A DNA stretch of 64,000 nt, from assembly GCF_019649055.1 (NCBI RefSeq), contig NW_026570282.1, positions 62,001 to 126,000 on the forward strand, read 5' to 3'. Position numbers and translations under genes: made by a program. This DNA comes from Paramacrobiotus metropolitanus (Eukaryota; Tardigrada; Eutardigrada; Parachela; Macrobiotidae). Positions 8,801 to 23,947 of this stretch are shown here, piece after piece. Under the pieces are notes generated by a model. The model was not told the DNA's origin. It saw only the letters and a program-made list of their open reading frames with translations, and made no database searches. Numbering within the stretch: the first letter of the stretch is position 1; each line of letters begins with the position of its first letter.

Positions 8801-11800
8801 TTCGCTGATGCCATTCGGTCCATTTATCACAACTGGACGGCTCATGAGCTTCTCCCGAGCACTCCCAACAAAAGTAGTGTCCGTTACCGCAGTCGACGGC
8901 GTGGGACGTCGCTAAGGGTGGCTTCATGTGGGGAATATCGAGTGACAAGGGCGCCGGTAGTTCTGGTCGGCACACAGCACGCCCGCATCCGGCAAAGGGG
9001 CACCACTTCATGTTTGGGTTACTTTCCACAAAGGCCTGCTTGCACAAGAGATGAATAGATCACTACGCTGTAGACACACAATGTCAGCAGCGGGTAAACA
9101 TACTTCAATGTCAAACTGCAGATATTTTCGCGCGACTTCACGTGACACCAGACCTTCAACAACATCGCAAGGAACGAGTACCGAGCAGCTGGAATCAGGG
9201 CACACGATCGGGTAGATGTTGCCATTGTGTATCTTAATTGTCAAATATCTAAAATGCGAATACAACGGTTGCTACACATTTTTCATTAAGTTCATTCTAA
9301 TACTTTTTTACCATTTATTGTTACTGCATCTGCCCACAGATAATATGCGTAGTAACTTGGCTGCTTACTATACCGTTCACCGACATAGTAAGTAAGTAAG
9401 TAAGTAAAAGAAAGTAAGGAAGTAAGTTAGGAAGTAAGTAAGGAAGTAAGTAAGGAAATAAGTTAGTAAGGAATAATAGTAATAGTAATAGTTAGTAAGG
9501 AAGTAAGTTCCTAATAGCCTATTCTAGTAGTACTAATCTACCTAACAAACTAAAATTTAGCAACGTAAAAACGATTACTGTACAGTGCAGAGCGCTAACG
9601 AGCCCCCATCAACTGCAATTTGACATCATTACATAACAGTTAATCAGGGATTGTGGAAGTTGATTTAAAAAAAAATAACAGGCACCTAACCGGTTTCCGA
9701 ATGTTCGTTCAAACTACAGTACTCTGTAACTGCCGGCCTGTTATTCAACATTACAATACGTACATAATTAGTGAGCATGTGAAATCAAGAAGTGGATTGA
9801 ACAGGTTGCACATAAAGTACGCGTTCTGCCGTATCGTTGGTAGAAAACTTCCGGCTCATGCAAACCGCGATTCTGTTAAGGAGTTTCGCTAACGGCTTGG
9901 TAAAAGTTAAGCACGGATGATTAGGACTTACTGCTGCCAGCAATTCCGACAGAAATCGTGTTCGCACGCTAAATAGACTGGTTCTTCTTCACAAGGCATA
10001 TCCTCCGCACATATCGGGCACTGAAAATGACATCATAATCAATATCTGATGCATTTCGGCTCTAATCTCAATCTATCACATCCCAAATGGTCAAGAGCAC
10101 TAATAAATGTTTATGTTGTCATCTAACCATTGAGTCCGCTTTACGCTGCAATGTCCGTTTGGGACTGCCCAATTCTAAATCCTCCGGTTTATAGCAGCCA
10201 TGTTTACGCCTCTTAGCAAAACTCTCGGGCAGTTTCACTCCGGCATTTTTGCAGCACTGAGCTGGGTTTTCGAACCAAGAATCCAACAATGCTTGTCTTG
10301 ACCACGCTATAACACAACGATTTCATGAGTTACATAAGGAATAGCATTATCTGCAAGTCTGCAAGGTTTGCAGAAATGTTAATTTCACAACAAACTGAAA
10401 TAAACCCATACCAAAATTTCGTAATAACGCTTCTGCAGTAAAAAGAGGCACATGTAGCATGTCCGAAGTTTCGACAACTAGCTGATCTTTTTTCCGTTGC
10501 AGATCTTGTATCCTCAATCCATCAAAACTCTGCAAAACCATATCCTAACATACTGCGGCCGTTATCGGTCTATAGTCTATACGGTGAAGCTACCATTTTC
10601 AGCCTTATATTAAATTTGTGGCACTGTTGTTAGTTTTTTCTAATGTGAGAACAGACTATGAAAATTTGATACAGTATCCTTTTTAAACTAACTGTCAAAT
10701 ACGTTTACAACAAGTACAGTATCTGCATATATACACTGCCACGCAAAATTAAGATGTGTCGGTGGCATTGTATTACTTAATGTATTTGCATTGTATTAAT
10801 TAATGTAATTAATGTATTCCGATGCGTAAATGCGCTCTGAAGAGAACAGATTATGATTTCCTTGTGTACGAGTATATCCTTTGTTGTTTTGTCACTGATG
10901 TGGTTTTTACAAAAAATAAAAGTGCTGCTGATGGTAAACCATGCAACATTGTTAGAAATTTGTGCCCATCATCCTTAATTACCTCAGTGTGTCCTATGGT
11001 CCAGTCTTCGCTCTCGTCATCGAACTCTTTCCCATGGTTTGAACTTGCATGAAAAACTGTTTTACTCTCCAAATATTCAGCTACACGCTCATGCCCAAAA
11101 TCGCAGGCTAGGTCGACCGGCGTTTTGCCGGATCCATTTCTTACAAATAAAGGTTCTAGAGCCTTTTCCACAATTTCCTAGAAAACATACTATCTAGTTA
11201 TCTGTATCAACACAAAAAAAGTTTAAATATCGAAAACAATCACGGACTAAAATACCTCACAAATTTCCAGAAATCCATGGGCTGCCGCCAGATGTAACGG
11301 AGTGTTTCCATGCTGAGAAATAAGCATAAGTGCATTATGAGAAATAAATAAAAGGACATGATTGTATCACTTATTTGTAATTATTATCCAAAAAATGTAT
11401 ACTGTAATGAAAATCGTTTGCTGACATGCCTAATTGCAAAACATTAACGTAAGATAAACAACGTCATCTATGGTTTAAAACCACTGCATATTGATATAAG
11501 AACCGATATAAACCAAATCTGCATTTCGAACAAAATTCCCTTCGAATGCCATAAATAAGATCTCTACTCGGCGGCATCCGCACAAAAAATAGCCTCACCA
11601 TATCCAGCATCATGTACACTTCTTTCAATAAGAGCGGAGCATTCTCCGTGTCCTTATATTCCAAAATTAGCTTCAGGCATTTATGTTTCCGGTCGCCGTG
11701 ATACTGAGGGAGATCCTTTAGGTAAATGGAAAAGGGAAGACGACACACACAATGGACGGCAGTCTCCTGAGCACTGTTTCTTTTTGTGATATCGACGCTG

Positions 11801-12236
11801 TAATCCGTTAAAAATGTCCTAGAAGAAACAGACATCTTAAAACTTGCCAGCAGATGGTACGAAAAAAACACACATACGTTCGGTAACATAAAAACACACA
11901 TAAGTTCGGTAATTACCACATTTAGAAATTAACGTCACAAATGGAACAAAACCACACGGTAAATTAAAATTATTACATTACTATTATTTGATTATTGCAA
12001 CTTTGCTGTCTTTACAAGTTTTTTGTACGATGAAACAATTATAGTTTATACCTGATCAGAGTCTCCATCCCGTGAATGCAGGCCAACTGAAACGGTGTGT
12101 TCCCTTCGTTCTTTATATAAACAATTTCGATGTCCAGCTGTTTTCGGAGATCATCCCGATTTTTCAGTAGCTCCAGAGCGCCAGCCTCGTCGCCGTGCGC
12201 GAGATGTCTTCGCAGTTTGCTCTTGTGATTTCCCAT
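5804..12236 (-). CDS. ANKIB1: Ankyrin repeat and IBR domain E3 ubiquitin ligase
   Basis: This is an RBR-type (Ariadne-like) E3 ligase, which passes ubiquitin through a cysteine thioester. Fifteen exons join in phase: 12236-12052, 11818-11599, 11312-11256, 11177-10983, 10544-10412, 10306-10128, 10020-9932, 9248-9104, 9035-8777, 8515-8163, 7870-7536, 7258-7165, 7104-6927, 6535-6368 and 6078-5804, giving 954 residues (human about 1089). The order is: start [10 protein letters not shown]; ankyrin repeats ([13 protein letters not shown]); a conserved block ending [22 protein letters not shown]1 (CPICAED...[10 protein letters not shown]); IBR (WCPFAGC...[14 protein letters not shown]); and RING2/Rcat ([19 protein letters not shown]), with Cys524 as the expected catalytic residue. 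A helical Ariadne-like region follows. The C-terminus carries three ubiquitin-interacting-motif-like helices. It is head-to-head with the lectin receptor gene and tail-to-tail with CWC15. Confidence 0.93.
9387..9509. repeat. Degenerate AAGT tetranucleotide microsatellite
   Basis: About 120 bases of agta/aagt/aagg units with interruptions, then agtaat trimers. It lies in the ANKIB1 intron between 9248 and 9932. Confidence 0.9.
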
Positions 12237-13543
12237 TTTGAAAGGTCCAGGAATTCTGTTCACCTTAACATGGTGACACACAACGTACATAAAACCATCA
12301 AACAATTGGTAGCAGCTACGTTACAAAACCAGTCGCATTCTCGCAAAGGAAAAAACGAAACAAGCAAGGTTAATGCGATGGAACATTTTAAAAATCAAGA
12401 AAAACTCGTACGTAGAACTGCCATATTCGTAACTGCGACTCAGCGACTGACGACAACATTTGTTTTTGTTTGCAATCCATCAGAATGATCAGATTGCTCG
12501 GTAAATGCGTGACTCCAAACCCCAAATCGGTCGGTTCATTGCGGGACTGGCCTGATCGCAAACCATTAAAGAGCCGAATGTCCAGGAGTTCAGCGTGTGT
12601 GTACTTACATAGTTATGACTGATGCGAGATATGACGTATATTGTAAAGCACAGTAGCACTTTCTAATAAAAAAAAGTGAATTGAAAAGTTGCTTTATCCG
12701 TCCCTCGAAAAATTTTCCAAATTTTCTGTTTCTTGGTTGCGGGCTTGAAATGCCAGAACAGGCAACTTGCTTTTGTTTTTGCTTGTCGTTTTAAAAAAAT
12801 CTATCCCCGCAGCAGGTGTGATGTGCGCACACCGCACGGTAGTCAGCAGAAAAAATACCGCGCGCGGTACGTCAATCTACTTCTTAAAATAATACTGTAC
12901 AGTAAATTTACAAAAGCAAAGCAACTAATTAAGTTAAAAATAGGAGGTTTGTTATAAAATCAGTTGATGTAAGTTATCAGCTATAAGCAAATATTAGTGC
13001 AGTGTTACTGCCAGATTGTTTGCATAGATTTAGATTAACCGGGAGCAGATAAGTAAGACAAATTAGAACGAAATATTGCTGTATCACAACACCCATTTTG
13101 ACATCTTACAACATGTAGGCAAGATTATAACTAACCGTAAGAACAAACTCTAATGACAAGCGATCCAATGACATACTTTCGCTTTAGTTATCTAATCATT
13201 TAGGGACAGCGAGTAAAGTAGTAGCGAGCCTAGTTAATTAATCTTATCAAAGATTTCGTAATTATTGTCAGTAAATCAGCGACAAACATGCATCGCCTTC
13301 GTAGGCACCATTTCTCTATATCAGCGCTTAAAAAGGTTCAATTTATGTTTTATTTATGTTACTTGCCGCTTTATTTAGTGGTGACCGCATACATAATTAT
13401 TGCATTTGTTCAGATCTAGCAGCTGGTTATAAGCCATCAGGACATCTTTTCGCTGTAGTCATGAATAATTTTTAACTCTCTCTTATTGTTTCTGTGTATC
13501 AAGGTTTTCTTGCGTTTTGTTATTAAGATTTTTCATTGGCAAA
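12237..13543. other. Intergenic region between divergent ANKIB1 and lectin receptor
   Basis: About 1.3 kb between two divergent start codons. It should hold the 5' UTRs and promoters of both genes. It is AT-rich and I see no exon chain or repeat that I can support. Confidence 0.6.
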
Positions 13544-16500
13544 ATGACCAGATTTAGTGAAGCCACTGTGTACTGCGTAATACTGCCGGCTTTGCTCTTA
13601 GCGCAGTGTTGTAAGTGTTTTACATTTATAATTGGGCTACTATTTCAGTTTTTATTATTAGTGCACTGTATCGTAACGACCAGTAAATTGGAATTGACAT
13701 AAATTTATTTTGTATTCTATAAATGATAGCGGTTATAGCATCTACCTGCAGAGTTGTGCCGCATAAGTTTTACAGTTGTTATCAAATTGAAATACGTAAT
13801 ACCGACATTTGTGGGACATAACTCTGTACCTATATTCCGCATATTCCGCCTGGACACAGTCGATCGGCACCACCCTCGGTGCACTCGTTGATATCTGCAT
13901 ATGTATAAAATGCCTGTGCTAATATTAATGCTGTGCTTAACAGCGATACAAAAACATTACTTACCGTAGCAATTTACTATCTGTATTGTTGATCTAGGTC
14001 TCATCCAAGGACAAAATTTTACCGGTAGGAAAATCCAGCATTGCCAATTGGTGCATGAAAATCAACTTTTAAGTTTAGGCAAATGCTTCGTACGCGCATT
14101 TAATTTTTTATAACAACTGCTACGGGCATTTGTTCTGATTATTGCTCGGCGGAGGTGCACTGCAGTCAGCAGTGGAACTGTAAAATTATTACATACTGTG
14201 AAATTTTTGCATTTGCCAATTCCACCTTTGCGCTACTCGTAGTTAACAAGAAGTATGTGACGCGAAACAAAGCAGGAGCATTCTCACCGCATTTGCAAGT
14301 TAGGGCGTATTGCGGACGTAGAGGAAGAAAAAGTAAGATGCGAATTGTGTTTTTGCAGAGCTGTGTAAGTCGCGTGTTCCCCTATCCAATACCGGTGGCA
14401 CCTGGAATTTCCTGGAGGATATCGGAGAATGCATTTTTATTGCCAGTGCCTCCAGTACATGGGAAAACGCCGAACTGGAATGTCTGCGGCGTGGAGCCCA
14501 TTTGGCCGTGCTTAATCCCAGCAATACTCCTGCTCTCAATGCCTTGATCAACTCGGTCGCACCCGGTTCATCGGTTCCCTACTACATCGGTCTACGTGTA
14601 TCTGACCTTAACTTGGGCGAGTACACTTGGGTGGATTTTTCCCCATTAACCTATTCCAACTGGGCGCCGAATCAGCCGTCCAGCATAAGCGATCACAATA
14701 CCGATTACTGCGTCACGATGGACTCTACGAGCGGTAAATGGTCCGACCGGATCTGTTCCTCGAATACCCGCTATTTCTGCCAACGCAAGCCGTATGATGA
14801 TCACGGTGTCCCGTCAATACCGACACGTGATCCCCTGGGGAGACATGGCGGCTGCAAAGAAGGATGGGTTTCATTTGGTGAGTTTACAAAAATTAATCAA
14901 GCTTAAATGAAAACGTACACTTATGTGCTGGTGCTACGTAATAAATTTAGGACCGCAATGCTATTACATTTCCTCAACGGATCAGGCTACCACCTGGGCG
15001 GAAGCACTGGAAAGTTGCCGCGATGGAGCGACTACAATGAAAAACGCCAGTCTGGCATCCGTTCTAGCATCGGTCGAGAATGATTTTCTCATTACTCAAC
15101 TGAAAGGTCGCGCAACAGATCCGACCCACATGAATTACAATGGCGTGTGGCTGGGGCTGCATGAAACAGGGCGAGATATTTTCGAATGGTCCGACCACAG
15201 CCGTTACGTGTACAATAACTGGCATTATAATTATCCACGCTATAATTTTCAGGTAAATTAAATTCTGCAATCCAGTTGGTTCGCTTATAATGGTTAAATT
15301 TTGGTTGACAGCTGGAATGCATTTCTATGATGACAGAAAGCAATAAAGTTGGCCGGTGGACAGATTTGGAGTGTACAAAACGACTTCCTTATGTTTGTAA
15401 AGCTCCCAAAGGTCAGTGACTATTGACTAATCGTATACAAATTACATGCATGCGCTGTGTAAAAAAATATTTTAAATTTAAAGCAGCAAAAGAAACAAAC
15501 AAATAATAATAAACAGACACAACGTAAACGTGGAAAGATTATCCCGCGGTACGTAAATCGACACAGCATTGATGTTTTCCATGAACTTTGCAGACTTTGA
15601 TTTGCCCGAGCACCAGACACCTCCCACCATTTGCGGCAGTACTTACGAACAATACGATGATGTGTGTTTCAAAGTGATTGCGTTGCCTAACGAAGCACAG
15701 CGTACCTGGTCCCATGCTCAGCAACTGTGTAGTCTTCAGCCCGGCGAAAACGTTCCCGCTGGTGGCGGTGGTTTGGCGACCATTGCCGACGTCTACGAAA
15801 ACGCTTTTGTTCGCATCTTAGTCGACAAGGCTGCTGCTCAGGCAGCCAATCCAGGATTAGATCTATCGTTTCTCAAGACGAAAGCCTGGTTGGGAATGCG
15901 CGAAGAATACGGTAACTACCGATGGCAGAATAATTGTCCGGTACGCTTTACCAATATGGATTCCTTGGTGGGTAACGCGCAAGAAAACCTGTGCGTTGAC
16001 ATGAACCTAGACGGTAAATGGCATCCTCACAACTGTTCGCTATCCGAAGTACGATTTGCCGTTTGCGAACGCCGACTCGGTAAGGCGATTGTTCTTTTTA
16101 TATCTAAGGTTTTCCGATAATAATTTTTAATCTGGCTGGAAAACTTTCCGCAGTTCCTTGCCCGAGCATTCCGACCGAACGTCCAGAAATTTGTCCAGAA
16201 AACTTTCCACAGGCTTGCGCGCATCACTGCTACACGTCGCGCAGCATTATCCAACACCTAAACCAAAGCGAGCTGGCGACCTTTGACGAAGCACGCAGCA
16301 AATGTATTGCATTAGGCGGCGATCTGGCCACTATCAGAACCAAAGAAGACCAGGATTGCGTTCATCCGTTTGTCCAGTACGCGGAGATGGGCATGTGGAT
16401 GGGATTACGCAACAAAGCCGGTGGCGCTGGAGCCAGTGGTATTTGGCAATGGATTGATCAGTACGAAAACGCCGAACCGACAACCTATGTTAACTGGATG

Positions 16501-19500
16501 ACTGGCAAGAATTTCGCTGCTCCACAAATTGTATATAAATGTTTACTTTGAATAAATATCTTGTAGGTGAACCCAATATGTTTGGCGCGTCTTGCGGAGA
16601 GATGTATCCGAATGGGTTTTGGAACGATGCAGGTTGTTACGAACGCCGAGGGTATATTTGTCAGGCCGCCAGAAATCGCACGGCGCCAGTAACACAACCA
16701 ACTCGACCACCAGGACGTACGTGCGCTCGTACATAAAACAATATATTCAGAGAAAAAATATCCAAAAAAATTTCAACTGAATTAGTAGCTATTATTGACC
16801 TATTACTGAACTGATATTCTGTAAAAATTTTTGGTGTAAGTAAACACGTATTTTTGGTGTAAGTTTACATGGTAAGGTTCATTTAACGATATTAATTGCA
16901 GCGCCTTGTGGAGAACAGCCTACTGACGGATCGGGCACCTGGTATTATTTGGAAAGCGTACGCGAGTGCATTTTCGTTGCCACGAGGATCGAGACCTTCG
17001 AAAATGCAGAATTGGCCTGCAGGCAACGACGATCTGGTCTGGTAGTGGTGAACAATGAAATTCAACCACTGATAACCGAAATCCTCAAGAACACTTCCGG
17101 TATGCTCCCGGGAACCCCTCAGTTTTTTATTGGCCTACGCATAACCAATGTTGACTTGGGCGAGTACACGTGGTTGGATGGTCGACCGATTGTTGGTGGT
17201 TTTACTAACTGGGCTCCCAATCAGCCAGCATCTGAGCAAAACCAAAAGAACTGCGTGATAATGTCTGGAATGGATGGCAAGTGGGCCAGTGAACGATGTG
17301 GAACCTACACAAAATATATATGCCAAAGGCCGGCACACGGTGACCGACCACCGCCGGTGCGACCGACCAGACCAAGTGACGGTTCACACGCAGGTTGTGC
17401 TAGCGGCTGGGTCCCTTTCGGTAAGTACCGGCATCAAATTCGATCACAAATTTGCACAATACTCTCGCAAACATGAATATCAGAATTACATTATTGGCTT
17501 TTTATTTCGAAAGGTCCCAACTGCTATTTTCTGTCTGTTGACCGGCAGACGTATACCTGGGCAGAAGCACTGTCCACCTGCACATTCGGAGAATTCGGGC
17601 ATCAAATGCGGAACTCCAGCTTAGTATCCATTTTGAGTGGTATAGAGAATGACTTCATCGTGACTTTGTTGAAAAATCGAAAATATAATGTCTGGATTGG
17701 ACTCCATGAGGTTGAGCCCAATGTATTCGAATGGTCGGACCATCATACTTATCGCTATAACAATTGGCATTATCAATATCCTCGTGACACCGCAGGCTGG
17801 GGGGTAAATGTTATCTTGCACTTGCAATAAGCGATACAGTAGAAATATGCATGTTTACTAAACCCTTGGCAATGATTCACAGCTGGAATGCATCAACATG
17901 CTTGTGGATCCGAGAACAGTTGGGCGCTGGACAGATCTGAGCTGCCAAGCACGAGGAGGATATATCTGCAAAGCCCCTAAAGGTCAAATAATTACAGCGA
18001 ATCGAAGCCGGATTTTTCTTTTTATATACCTTTACATATACATAACTACTCATATTATAATATGAATTAAATGATAAAAGCACAATAGTTAAGCTGTGAA
18101 AAGTTCAATATATTCTTCTATATCTTTATGTGCAGATTTTGCCATGAAGCCTTATGAACCGCCACCAACAAACTGCAGCGCGGGTTATCAACCTTACGGA
18201 GATGCATGCTTCCAGGTGGTTCATCTGGAACGGGATGGAGAGCATACATGGTCGCATGCGGAACAGCAATGCAGACCGTCCGCGATGGAAAACTGGCCGG
18301 GAGGTGGTGGATTGGCTACTATTTCGGACGTGTACGAAAATGCATTTGTCCGTGTCCTGGTGGACGAGGCAATAAGATTCGGTCGGCCAGGGCAGGATTT
18401 TCGTTCACCAAAAGCTTGGCTGGGTATGCGGGAAGAATACGGGCATTATTCTTGGTACAACCAGTGCCCGGCACATTTTACCAACCTCGATAGCTTAATC
18501 GGAGATGAGAATTCTACCCTGTGTGTGGATATGGACTTGGAGGGAGGATGGCACGCCCACGGATGCTCTGACCGTGACGTCAGGATGGCAGTCTGTGAAC
18601 GTCGGTTTGGTAAGTCAGTGAATACTACGAGTATAAAAAAGTACGACGTACGCGGTACACACTGTAATTTTCCATTTTCAAAAGCCATGGATACTAATGC
18701 CATTATTATTAATTTCGATATCCTTTCCAAGGGTATAACAACAGTAAGTCACTTGATCACTGCAACTTGTGAGCTTTAAAAAAATTTAGTGTACTCTGTA
18801 ATCAGATAAAATCTTTAGAATAAACAATCAGAAAGGTATTTGTACCACGTTTGTATATTACCGGTATTAGTGATGCACCTCTATCTGTATAGTGCCTTGC
18901 CCGAAAATTAACAGTACCACATCGGAGACGGTTGTCTGTCCAAAAGAATTTCCGCTTGCCTGCGGAAATCACTGTTATTTCGTACGTACCATCCAACAGC
19001 ACAACAACCAGACCGACCAGACCGTGCTTGTCACCTTTAACGAGGCCCGTGCGACCTGTCTTGCTATGGGTGGCGATCTCGTATCCATCCGGTCGGAAGA
19101 GCAGCAGAAATGTGTGCGGCCATTCGCACAATACTCGATAGAAGGTTTGTGGATAGGTTTGCGCAATCTTGACTTGAACAGTAGCCCATCGGATACGAGC
19201 AAATGGGTGTGGACTGACCGCGATAACAACACTGAACCAGCCCTCTATGCCAATTGGTACCTTGGTAAGTACTGAGACTGAGCACGCGCAGACTAATTTT
19301 CATCGTTAATTGTTTAACAAATCTTACTGTGGTTAAAAGTTTAACGATATACTCTGTACAATACATATGGATGTGCATATGTATGCTCAAACAAATGAAC
19401 AATATTTGAAAATTTAGGAGAACCAACATCTGGTGGGTCGGAACGCTGCGCGGAAATGTACCCAGACAATGGATATTGGAACAATTTGAGATGCGACGCC

Positions 19501-20139
19501 GATGTCAAGCGGGGATATATTTGCCAAGCTGACAGAAGCCGGGTAGTTATGGTCACCGGGAGCACGATTCCTCCCACAAGTAAGCAGCATCTTTATTCGT
19601 TTGTGTCGCATCCCTAACTAACGGTGCAAAGAAAGTTTAAAAGCGAAATTCGCTTCATATATTAGTGTCATGCATAAAAAATGCCCACAGCTTCTCGGCC
19701 ATAAACGTATTGCTATGTTGCATTAGCTGTGTCGGAGTCCGTTGGTGGTAGCAGCAGCGCTGTCACTGGGCCTTCAACATCTCAGACCACAAAAGGCAAT
19801 AGCATCGCAACGGGCACCATTCATCCATCTCTTCCCACAGCAGCAGGCACCGGCACAACACGAGATTTCGGTGGAGTAGTTTCCTCGACAGCTTCGCCAG
19901 AGGAGACCGGATTGGCCGGAGGATCCATTGCCGGAATTGTCATCGGTGTCCTATTAGGCGTAGCACTGCTGTGTGCCGTTGCTTTTGTAGTTTTAACAGG
20001 AAGAACCGGATTAGTAATAGCCACCGCCAAGAGTACCGGATCTCGCGTTACTAGTCGATGGAGAAAAGGATCTGATGCTGACCGCATACCAGTGGTGGAT
20101 ATGCATCACCGTTTTGATGCCAGCGATTCTTATACTTGA
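13544..20139 (+). CDS. Eight-C-type-lectin-domain type I membrane receptor
   Basis: Predicted cell-surface receptor with eight C-type lectin-like domains (CTLDs), organised like the mannose receptor family but lacking ricin-type and fibronectin II modules. Fifteen exons: 13544-13610, 13998-14024, 14359-14877, 14951-15252, 15312-15411, 15594-16079, 16154-16504, 16567-16716, 16902-17420, 17514-17803, 17883-17982, 18136-18609, 18893-19264, 19418-19579 and 19727-20139. They give 1443 residues with every phase consistent. A signal peptide (VILPALLLAQC) leads. Eight CTLDs follow, then a Ser/Thr-rich stalk, a transmembrane helix at about residues 1374-1396 (IAGIVIGVLLGVALLCAVAF) and a tail of about 47 residues. 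CTLDs 5-8 repeat 1-4 in order. CTLD4 has EPN plus WND, the calcium-dependent mannose-type signature. CTLD8 has EPT and WNN, and CTLDs 1 and 5 have QPS or QPA. The intron after exon 7 begins with GC. A polyadenylation signal is at 20198-20203. The ligand is unknown. Confidence 0.88.
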
Positions 20140-23113
20140 GCGCTTTCTGTTCAAACCTCGTCACTTGTGGTATTTAGAATTGTTGCATATTTTAATTAAT
20201 AAATAATTTTGAAAACATACTGGGGATATAGTTTTAGATTAGTGTTTGTCTATTTTTACATTTCCCGTTGCATCCTCGTCTCTGCTTTTAGAAAATTTGA
20301 AGTTAAATAGAATTAGCAAAGCTAATTCCGGTTAACGCAGTGGAAGCGATTGCAAGGCTGGACGACTTGGTTGACCAGTGTCCAGCCAAGAAAACCCATT
20401 AGGGTGTGTCTTGGGATGCATATTTCGATGCTGTATTAAAAGCAATGCAGTTTCGGTTGTGGATGTTTCATGTGTAGTGATTGTGCATTTCTTTTAGTGC
20501 ATTTCAGTTCCTGTTGTGTTGGAGTAAAGGTTGTTTTCGTGTAACAAGTCGTTCTTCCCTCCCGCCCACCCCCTTTGGAGAGGAGACGGGGGGTTGCTGG
20601 ACGGCGGGGCCGGTTGCGCCGGTGACCCGTGTTCCGGTGCTAGTGTCTTCACCCAATGCCAAAATAAAATTGAATCGTTACGCGCTGCTGTTGTTGTTAC
20701 CGTAGACTGCGTTAAGTGGGCACTACGAAGGATAGCTAATCGGCTATACAAAGCTTTGAGATACAGCAGCAGAGATATCTCGTAGATATCTCGTACTATG
20801 CTTTTGCATTAGGTTGGGATGAGAGATCCAGGTAACGCTCTCAAATTAACTAATATTATAAGTCTAGAGATATGATTATTAAATATAGATATATAAGCAT
20901 ACTTACTACTGTAGATCTAGAGTAAGTAAGACACTAAAGACAACAAGTATGTGCAACAGTGCAAGTACTTCTATAACAAAATCGTTTACAAAATACTGCA
21001 AACTTGCCGCATTATATTGATTCTTTGTGATTTTACGCATGTAAATTTAATACAAGAATATTGAAGTTTTTAAAGAAGGATGCTTTGCAACTGGTGAATT
21101 TTTATATGCGTTCTCAGCACCATGGTCAACAAGAAAAGCGATTGATAACCAATTACGCACAAGCGCTAGCAGTAGTGGTACAAGTACTGTAATAGTTTTA
21201 TGGATGCGCATTTAATACTGTAGTTTTGCACGTACGGTGTAATTTTATCATTATTTATCATCATTATGTGTCGTTACATATTGATATATAGATACAGCTG
21301 CATTGTAGCTGATTGTACCAAACCGAAATTTTAATATTATGTGTAATGACTATACAGATTCCAGACTTACAGTATCAATGAGCAACTACCTTATCGTGGC
21401 GGAAAGTTTAACGATTTTCATTCAACCGCCGCGAGTTGTTGCAACAGAAACACATGTTCTTACACTGCTCACGTGGTGTAACACAATCACTAATTTTTAA
21501 CACCAACCAATCAGCTGAATGGTCCTTCAACGTTTAACAGTCTGCAATCGATAAAGAAAGGGTTGGGTTCGGCAATGATTTGATTCGTGAGAGAAATTGT
21601 ATTGATGTGAAAGACTGAAGAGCCTACCGGGTGCAACCCGCTGTTTCATGGTCAAACTATAAGCTTTGTTGCCGATTCAGCGGCACATCGGGCTGATATC
21701 CGCTTGCAGCTCACGTGCTCCTTTAAAATCGCGAAAGGGAAAGCCCTATTGACAGCAAATAAGTTTAATCGTTACCCATTATTTAATGGTACTTTATCGT
21801 TTTGTTCGCTCACAATCGTTGCCGGCGAAGTCGCAAGGTACCCACGCCTTGCTGACTATGCACGATACTTAAATGTCATCAGCACAATGTCATTGCTTTA
21901 CAAAGGAAATGAGTGTAAAAATTAATTTGTTGCGTTCAAATGCTTGCAAAGTAAATTAAAGGTGCATCAATGCCTACTTCCTACGCATTAAACTTACAAG
22001 CTTGATCTGCAGTCATACAAAAATAAATATGAAATGCGCGTACGCGTACTGCTTCTCTTTTTTGGCCGTTAAATTGTAATTTAATTTAACAGGAATGATC
22101 ACCTATGCAGTGTATTGGTATGTTTGTAAATTCTCGTAACAGCGTCAGTTTTACATTTATTGACAAGTGAGTGGCATTTGAGCCTGATGTAGTAAGTGAA
22201 AAACAAATGAGAGCTCAAACTTTAACAAAATAATTTCGCAAAAAAATTGAACGAAATTTGATTAATACAAAGGGCATGGTACGTCTTACAAAAAATGTTA
22301 TTTGGCAAATAAACATTTCATAAATTACAGTATCTGGCTAATCTAATCCAGCTGACGATTGTAATCATTGCATCATGTAAGTACGAGCAGTATGTATATA
22401 AATGCAGCATCGCCGGTCGGATTCTACCCAAACAATGCACAATATAAATCTTAATCGGAAAGCTTATGTACGGCAAGGGAGCAAAACTCCACTACAGAGC
22501 TTTAATAAAAAACAGTGACCAGATGGCACTGTGTTCAAAATACCTATGCGTTTCCGTGTCGATGGAAAACACGTTCTTATTTTTTCAGTTCCACGTTCAG
22601 GGATATCCCTGAAGTGCAAGACCATGCACCTAACAAGAAAATATTATAAGTTCACATTTTCCAGAGTGCTTAGCCTAATACTGCCAAATCCTTAATGGAA
22701 CCGGCTGGGGCAACATAAAAGTCCCGGGACCATTCTGTTTATTTGTTCTACTCGGCCGTAGCACCCGTGTAGGCTGCTGTGGGCCTGTGTGAGAGCCGGC
22801 GTTCTCTTCGTTTCTCGCTCGTCCTCTCTTTTTCTCTCTCCCTCTCGCTCATTCTCTAGAGACGGGAGAATATCGATTTTTTCCATGCCACCGCGTGCGG
22901 AGCATGTCGGCTACATGTATATAACAAGGAGCCTGCTACTTGCTGGATTGTCTTGTGGATCATTCATATGTAAGCCACGCTCATCGGCAGCGGCTCCACA
23001 GTTGTCAACGCAGGGCAGTGCACTAGCAGCTTCGCGGAAGCTTTTACCATAAATCAGTGCCGTTTTGGATAATATTTTCGTCGTGTCCGCATTACGACCT
23101 AACTGACTCTTCC
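20140..23113. other. Intergenic region upstream of the PH-domain gene
   Basis: Nearly 3 kb. It holds the 3' UTR of the lectin receptor, a dispersed repeat copy (about 20305-20600) and a CT-rich tract at 22812-22858 that probably belongs to the promoter or 5' UTR of the PH gene. No exon chain is recognised. Confidence 0.5.
20305..20600 (+). repeat. Dispersed repeat, copy A
   Basis: Begins with a near-palindromic block (aattagcaaagctaattccg at 20311-20330) that recurs at 47097-47116 with two changes. Further blocks are shared in the same order: the flanking gaa..taaata, cagtgtccag, gtgtctt.ggat, and a C-rich ccctccc stretch near the far end. The identity is patchy, suggesting an old element. 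No coding frame. Confidence 0.5.
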
Positions 23114-23947
23114 ATGGTGCAAAAAGCCGTTAACAGTCCGGCACTTTCCCGGAAGTCCACCAACAGGGATTCACCCCGACAGCAGCGCGCAGGCCAGCCA
23201 GCACCGGCGCCTCGGCAAATGTCAATTGTCTCCGATCTTGATTCGGTTAAGTCGTATCCAATCTCCATTGAAGCCCCATCGGATGTGACATGCGAGAGCG
23301 GCTATGAGACAACTACCGATGTGGTCTGTAAGGGACCGCTCCTCTACTATAAACCCCGCTGGTTCGGTGAGAGCTGGAAACGCTACGATGCCGTGCTGAC
23401 CAATGACGGTGTGTTTCGATGGTATAAAAAAGGGGGCAGTGAGCCCGCCGAGCTGGAAGGCACCCTGGTGCTGCAATCCATTCCCAATGGATTGATTACC
23501 TTTGGAAAAAATACGGAGAATATACCCAAGGAACAGCAAGTGCGGTTTCCTAAAGAATTCAATTTTCAACCAGCCATCGCCATCGGCGAGCCGTACACAT
23601 CTGGGGAAATTTTCTGGTTTCTCTGCCCGTCAACCGATATGATTCGCCTATGGGAACAAGGATTCAGGGATTTAGTGGCAGCGGAGAAATTCAGCTCCGG
23701 CAGCGGCGTGTATTCAGCCTGGAAGAAATACAGTCCCGAACGACCAACCCAGTCCACGCAGGAGCATGAACCGCATAAAGAAGCGGGCTGGAATGATGTA
23801 TGTATAGTGTGTCTTATATGCAATGCAAATATTTACTGCCTGCATTATGCTAAAGGTATACTGCGGGTGTTTAAGGATGTTTCTATTGATCTTTCTTCGT
23901 TTCTCCTACAGGCAGCCATCATTCTGGCATTGGACTTTTCAATGTAG
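23114..23947 (+). CDS. PH-domain protein of unknown family
   Basis: Encodes a pleckstrin-homology domain after a short, basic, proline-containing leader (residues 1-71). The domain spans about residues 72-199: it opens GPLLYYKPRW, has the strand pattern RYDAVLTNDGVFRWYKKGG, and ends with the C-terminal helix holding the usual tryptophan (MIRLWEQGFRDLVAAEKF). Such domains bind phosphoinositides or partner proteins at membranes; the ligand is not predictable here. The likely exon 1 is 23114-23797, followed by an intron to 23911 with a good pyrimidine tract and CAG, and exon 2 from 23912 to a TAG at 23945-23947. The 114-base intron has no in-frame stop, so a retained form would also be translated. 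Other donor choices change the last dozen residues. An upstream in-frame ATG at 23057 is possible, but the codon at 23114 sits closer to the conserved part. I do not recognise an orthologue. Confidence 0.65.
   Translation: MVQKAVNSPALSRKSTNRDSPRQQRAGQPAPAPRQMSIVSDLDSVKSYPISIEAPSDVTCESGYETTTDVVCKGPLLYYKPRWFGESWKRYDAVLTNDGVFRWYKKGGSEPAELEGTLVLQSIPNGLITFGKNTENIPKEQQVRFPKEFNFQPAIAIGEPYTSGEIFWFLCPSTDMIRLWEQGFRDLVAAEKFSSGSGVYSAWKKYSPERPTQSTQEHEPHKEAGWNDVCIVCLICNANIYCLHYAKGILRVFKDVSIDLSSFLLQAAIILALDFSM

Follow-up and report, generated by a model that had tools for sequence, protein, structure and literature searches.

Probable formation of a tardigrade eight-CTLD receptor gene by merger of two tandem four-CTLD units

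A predicted receptor gene of the tardigrade Paramacrobiotus metropolitanus carries eight CTLDs in two corresponding sets of four, which raises the question of whether the two sets arose by duplication within the gene or by another route. The gene lies on the plus strand at 13544-20139 of the window, by which we mean the whole 64,000-nucleotide stretch that was analysed (positions 62001-126000 of contig C62). In the splice model, a single gene is made up of 15 coding exons; it encodes 1443 residues plus the stop, and its frame is intact (Table 1). All of its introns are GT...AG except for a single GC donor after 16504; this donor, at the end of the block 1 CTLD4 exon, reads G/GCAAGA, and a GT donor is found in block 2 and in the copy on contig C3. 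Elsewhere in the window, open frames at 23027-23947 and 10851-12320 (minus) look by eye like PH-domain-like and ankyrin-repeat-like proteins.

Table 1. Parts of the eight-CTLD gene model, in window positions.
Feature	Start	End	Strand	Content
Exon 1	13544	13610	+	Start codon and predicted signal peptide MTRFSEATVYCVILPALLLAQC
Exon 2	13998	14024	+	27-base micro-exon, phase 1-1, proper splice sites
Exon 3	14359	14877	+	CTLD1, HMM match 14451-14783
Exon 4	14951	15252	+	CTLD2, first part
Exon 5	15312	15411	+	CTLD2, end
Exon 6	15594	16079	+	CTLD3, HMM match 15698-16069, without sugar-site motif
Exon 7	16154	16504	+	CTLD4, first part; GC donor
Exon 8	16567	16716	+	Rest of CTLD4 and Pro/Thr linker; last exon of block 1
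Intron between blocks	16717	16901	+	Phase 1, 185 bp
Exon 9	16902	17420	+	CTLD5, HMM match 16988-17326
Exon 10	17514	17803	+	CTLD6, first part
Exon 11	17883	17982	+	CTLD6, end
Exon 12	18136	18609	+	CTLD7, HMM match 18240-18599
Exon 13	18893	19264	+	CTLD8, first part
Exon 14	19418	19579	+	Rest of CTLD8 and linker; last exon of block 2
Exon 15	19727	20139	+	Ser/Thr stalk, predicted TM helix (about 19918-20001, GGSIAGIVIGVLLGVALLCAVAFVVL), cytoplasmic tail ending ASDSYT

Pfam searches found Lectin_C above its curated cut-off of 22.6 bits in every CTLD segment of the window protein, and no other family rose above cut-off. With two matches in each segment, CTLD1/2 together scored 109 bits and CTLD5/6 together 115 bits, and CTLD3, CTLD4, CTLD7 and CTLD8 scored 36, 63, 31 and 70 bits, respectively. 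These matches and the splice model support the single receptor, with eight CTLDs in two matching blocks, that a preliminary description of this locus had proposed. The block exon lengths it listed (519/302/100/486/351/150 and 519/290/100/474/372/162) are exact, and the phases are identical between blocks, but its exon list overlooked the 27-base micro-exon. Spliced straight to the first CTLD exon, exon 1 would run into a TAG stop, and the micro-exon restores the frame; its peptide, NFTELCK, has the counterpart SFTELCG in the C3 copy. In the 2 kb searched upstream, exon 1 is the sole signal-peptide-like exon with a good phase-1 donor, and the membrane exon (exon 15) has homologues in ten other copies of the family described below.

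The two blocks align end to end at 51% identity, and the one-to-one match of CTLDs 1-4 with CTLDs 5-8 that had been described is borne out in sequence, exon order, length and intron phase. The pairing 1/5, 2/6, 3/7 and 4/8 that had been expected of a CTLD tree is recovered when the window's eight domains are analysed alone, but not when the family paralogues are included. The further claim of an "intragenic duplication of six exons" is likewise not supported, since the window halves are not closest relatives once the other copies in the genome are added.

These copies were found by CTLD searches covering the 169.8-Mb assembly (533 contigs), followed by spliced alignment. The four-CTLD block, here called the quartet, recurs at least 15 times, on contigs C3, C41, C62, C78 and C107. 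Nearly all copies have an exon pattern of roughly 487/290/100/450/357/155, the block borders in the family models are phase-1 introns, and a receptor usually has a single quartet, after which comes a membrane exon whose core reads GGxIAGIVIGVLL. The window gene shows the same features, namely CTLDs 1-4 in order, the exon pattern, phase-1 borders and a membrane exon after the block. Across the copies, every domain position (two upstream of the block and the four within it) clusters separately, with the exception of one unstable position-1 row in the larger tree; the CTLD order is therefore old and fixed.

Except in the window, at C3 3.29-3.30 Mb and on C41, the quartet forms the C-terminal end of longer receptors, whose CTLD number, counted from HMM pieces, is about 10-11 in C62_3 and at least 14 in C107_2. 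The long receptors (C62:266-317 kb, C78, C3:1041-1048 kb and C107) share with the window gene the quartet before the membrane exon, its exon order and phases, a homologous membrane helix and, in several cases, a tail ending in [ST]Y[ST]-COOH, but they carry several further CTLDs upstream that the window and C3 genes lack. About five of these multi-CTLD receptors, roughly 10 kb apart and each with a quartet and a membrane exon, form a tandem array at C62:258001-320000. The C-terminal motif [ST/V]-Y-[ST]-COOH was seen in the tails at window 20070-20139, C62:285842, 296428, 306422 and 316972, C78:320368 and C107:267359, often preceded by an aromatic residue 4-6 positions upstream, and is absent from C3 A and B. 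In the open literature we found no tardigrade paper describing a multi-CTLD receptor family, and searches on tardigrade C-type lectins and CTLD gene fusion returned nothing relevant; the quartet analysis reveals a sizeable receptor family unstudied in the literature searched.

The relationships among the blocks bear directly on the origin of the window gene. The 15-block tree pairs window block 1 with C3 block A as sisters (100/100) and resolves a second group as (window block 2, (C3 block B, C41)) with support of 95/99. Outside these five falls the C-terminal quartet of C62_5, one of the long receptors; this quartet was assembled from two parts. AU tests rejected a forced union of the window halves (p = 0.0003, at a cost of 122 log units), as well as a forced union of the two C3 blocks (p = 3e-5). 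In the single-domain tree, the four block 1 CTLDs all pair with C3 block A (bootstrap at least 95). For block 2, positions 1, 3 and 4 fall with C3 B and C41, and the placement of position 2 is not resolved; in total, seven of the eight window CTLDs are grouped with a C3-side counterpart instead of their partner in the other window half. As judged from these trees, the quartet duplication predates the separation of the window and C3 copies, and the duplication mechanism suggested earlier for the window gene is probably wrong. Differences between the window and C3 blocks, by codon position, are 0.23/0.20/0.56 and 0.28/0.21/0.59, and because they fall mostly at third positions, both halves have evolved under protein-level constraint. 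The C41 copy (C41:186380-199020, minus) is a B-type quartet that stands alone, and its CTLD2 is interrupted by a 10-kb intron; no recognisable membrane exon was found within 10 kb of it, and it may be degenerate or partial.

The window and C3 loci differ at the junction between the blocks. At C3, 3.1 kb separate blocks A and B, and this gap contains a homologous membrane-and-tail exon that carries a stop codon (3297788-3297550), whereas the corresponding gap in the window is the 185-bp phase-1 intron, which contains no membrane exon, signal peptide or start and has stops in all three frames. The C3 inter-block exon shares only 22 of 42 residues with the membrane exon after block B; this is about the divergence seen between the blocks (53%), so the exon looks old and not like a recent copy. 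Block A at C3 has a signal exon at 3301865-3301814 (MTNLFFAFALVLLQAGC); for block B no in-phase signal exon was found, only weak or out-of-phase candidates. Within 15 kb, the window and the C3 locus have no flanking genes in common.

We favour, with a probability of roughly 0.68, the reading that the window gene encodes a single-pass, eight-CTLD surface receptor for recognition or endocytosis, formed by merging two tandem four-CTLD units that had already diverged. A quartet with its membrane exon would have split off from a long receptor and been duplicated in tandem to give units A and B; the A-B pair would then have been copied to two places, now the window and C3, and the window copy would have lost the stretch that runs from unit A's last intron to unit B's first, including the membrane exon of A plus whatever started B. 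Such a merger would keep the frame, since all the family models have phase-1 introns at their block borders. The membrane exon is present at C3 and absent from the window, and the deletion that we infer from this difference gives the simplest history. Since no clear signal exon was found for block B at C3, the two blocks there may belong to a single transcription unit that can end at either of two places; the window copy would then have lost an internal membrane exon, and no fusion of two genes would have taken place. The C41 copy is weak proof of a free-standing B gene because of its possible degeneration.

An origin by six-exon intragenic duplication, with the resulting eight-CTLD gene then copied to C3, is in our view unlikely. 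It agrees with the one-to-one match of the window halves and their equal exon numbers and phases, and an event of the same kind is real on C107, where the consecutive blocks 2a and 2b form a sister pair (100/99) at 64% identity and are separated by a phase-1 intron of about 140 bp. By sequence comparison, C107 is a true intragenic block duplication, and the mechanism exists in the quartet family, but not for the window gene: its halves do not form a sister pair, their duplication predates the split between the window and C3 copies, and the extra membrane exon of C3 differs from its partner about as much as the blocks differ from each other. Under intragenic duplication, either the membrane exon appeared between the C3 blocks later or further duplication and deletion split the gene, and the account needs more events (a C3 split or membrane-exon gain, or a tandem copy with two deletions). 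The C107 receptor itself (C107:267180-279142, minus) has at least 14 CTLDs by HMM pieces, with its last quartet internally duplicated as 2a/2b.

We consider it very improbable that the window holds two separate or alternative transcripts, one for a secreted four-CTLD block 1 form ending in RPPGRTCART and another for a block 2 product from a different start. Reading past the exon 8 donor into the 185-bp intron does reach a stop within seven codons, and C3 has a membrane exon at the corresponding place, yet signal peptide, start and membrane exon are all absent from these 185 bp, and exons 8 and 9 join cleanly by splice sites and phases. To an assembly artefact that removed real sequence at the block join, we give next to no credence: the matching published genome was built from long nanopore reads (PMC8277472), which may be set on its side, but the intron has proper splice sites and the blocks are too diverged (51%) to collapse. 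The merger of two tandem units would make this locus a clear one-genome case of receptor growth by that route, alongside what is probably its un-merged sister locus; a third locus in the same genome (C107) adds an independent internal duplication.

CTLD4 is the only one of the eight window CTLDs with both EPN and WND, but it has ASC where ExC is expected; because it lacks the Glu two residues before the following cysteine, its sugar binding may be weak or absent. CTLD8 carries EPT and WNN, and position-3 domains have no sugar site in any family copy. The EPN/WND motif also occurs in CRD4 of the mannose receptor, where specificity is set by Glu725 and Asn727 (PMC7949135). Calcium-dependent sugar binding by the window protein could rest mainly with CTLD4, the other CTLDs serving as scaffold or in protein binding. 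Like the mannose receptor, the predicted protein may be a type I receptor active in recognition or endocytosis. Read by eye, the window tail has no FxNxxY and ends in the conserved [ST]Y[ST].

In the mannose receptor family, MRC1, MRC2/Endo180 and PLA2R have eight CTLDs and DEC-205 has ten. Mannose receptor family members are type I membrane proteins with a long CTLD array and a short tail, and the family is defined by ricin-type and fibronectin II domains (PMC4229073). The window gene resembles them in having a CTLD number within the 8-10 range and a type I layout, with signal and membrane segments predicted from sequence, and in that its sugar motif persists mainly in one domain, CTLD4. It differs in consisting of two copies of one phase-1 quartet with its own exon pattern. 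The Pfam search of the window protein confirmed the reported absence of both ricin-type and fibronectin II modules, with Lectin_C alone above cut-off in the N-terminal segment. Across the genome, no Ricin_B match fell at a CTLD locus, and the fibronectin II search gave no match, though its control was also silent. A Ricin_B match of 41.9 bits at C62:54923-55315, about 7 kb before the window, is not joined to CTLD exons. Because the defining domains were not found, we do not file the window gene as a member of the mannose receptor family.

Some invertebrate proteins also go by the name of mannose receptors, among them shrimp LvMR (PMC10341498) and Manila clam RpMR1-13 (PMC12321717); these too are receptors that bear CTLDs and have links to immunity. 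LvMR differs in having FNII with two CTLDs, and the clam set was gathered by Pfam Lectin_C alone; the passages covered of the two reports do not describe a quartet.

Among solved structures, the quartet finds its best matches in DEC-205 (E = 4e-41) and the macrophage mannose receptor (5e-33). In DEC-205, CTLD1-4 and CTLD5-8 form two rings (PMC7948739), a grouping by four that resembles the window quartet, and we treat the parallel as a lead. Given that DEC-205 arranges its CTLDs in fours, the recurrence of the quartet offers a way to test whether groups of four are structural units that evolve whole. It is possible, at less than even odds, that the quartet is a genuine unit of both structure and evolution, perhaps a DEC-205-like ring, that was cut, duplicated and fused whole through phase-1 introns to give receptors with 4, 8, about 11 and at least 14 CTLDs; were this so, the unit would have built CTLD arrays longer than any in the mannose receptor family.
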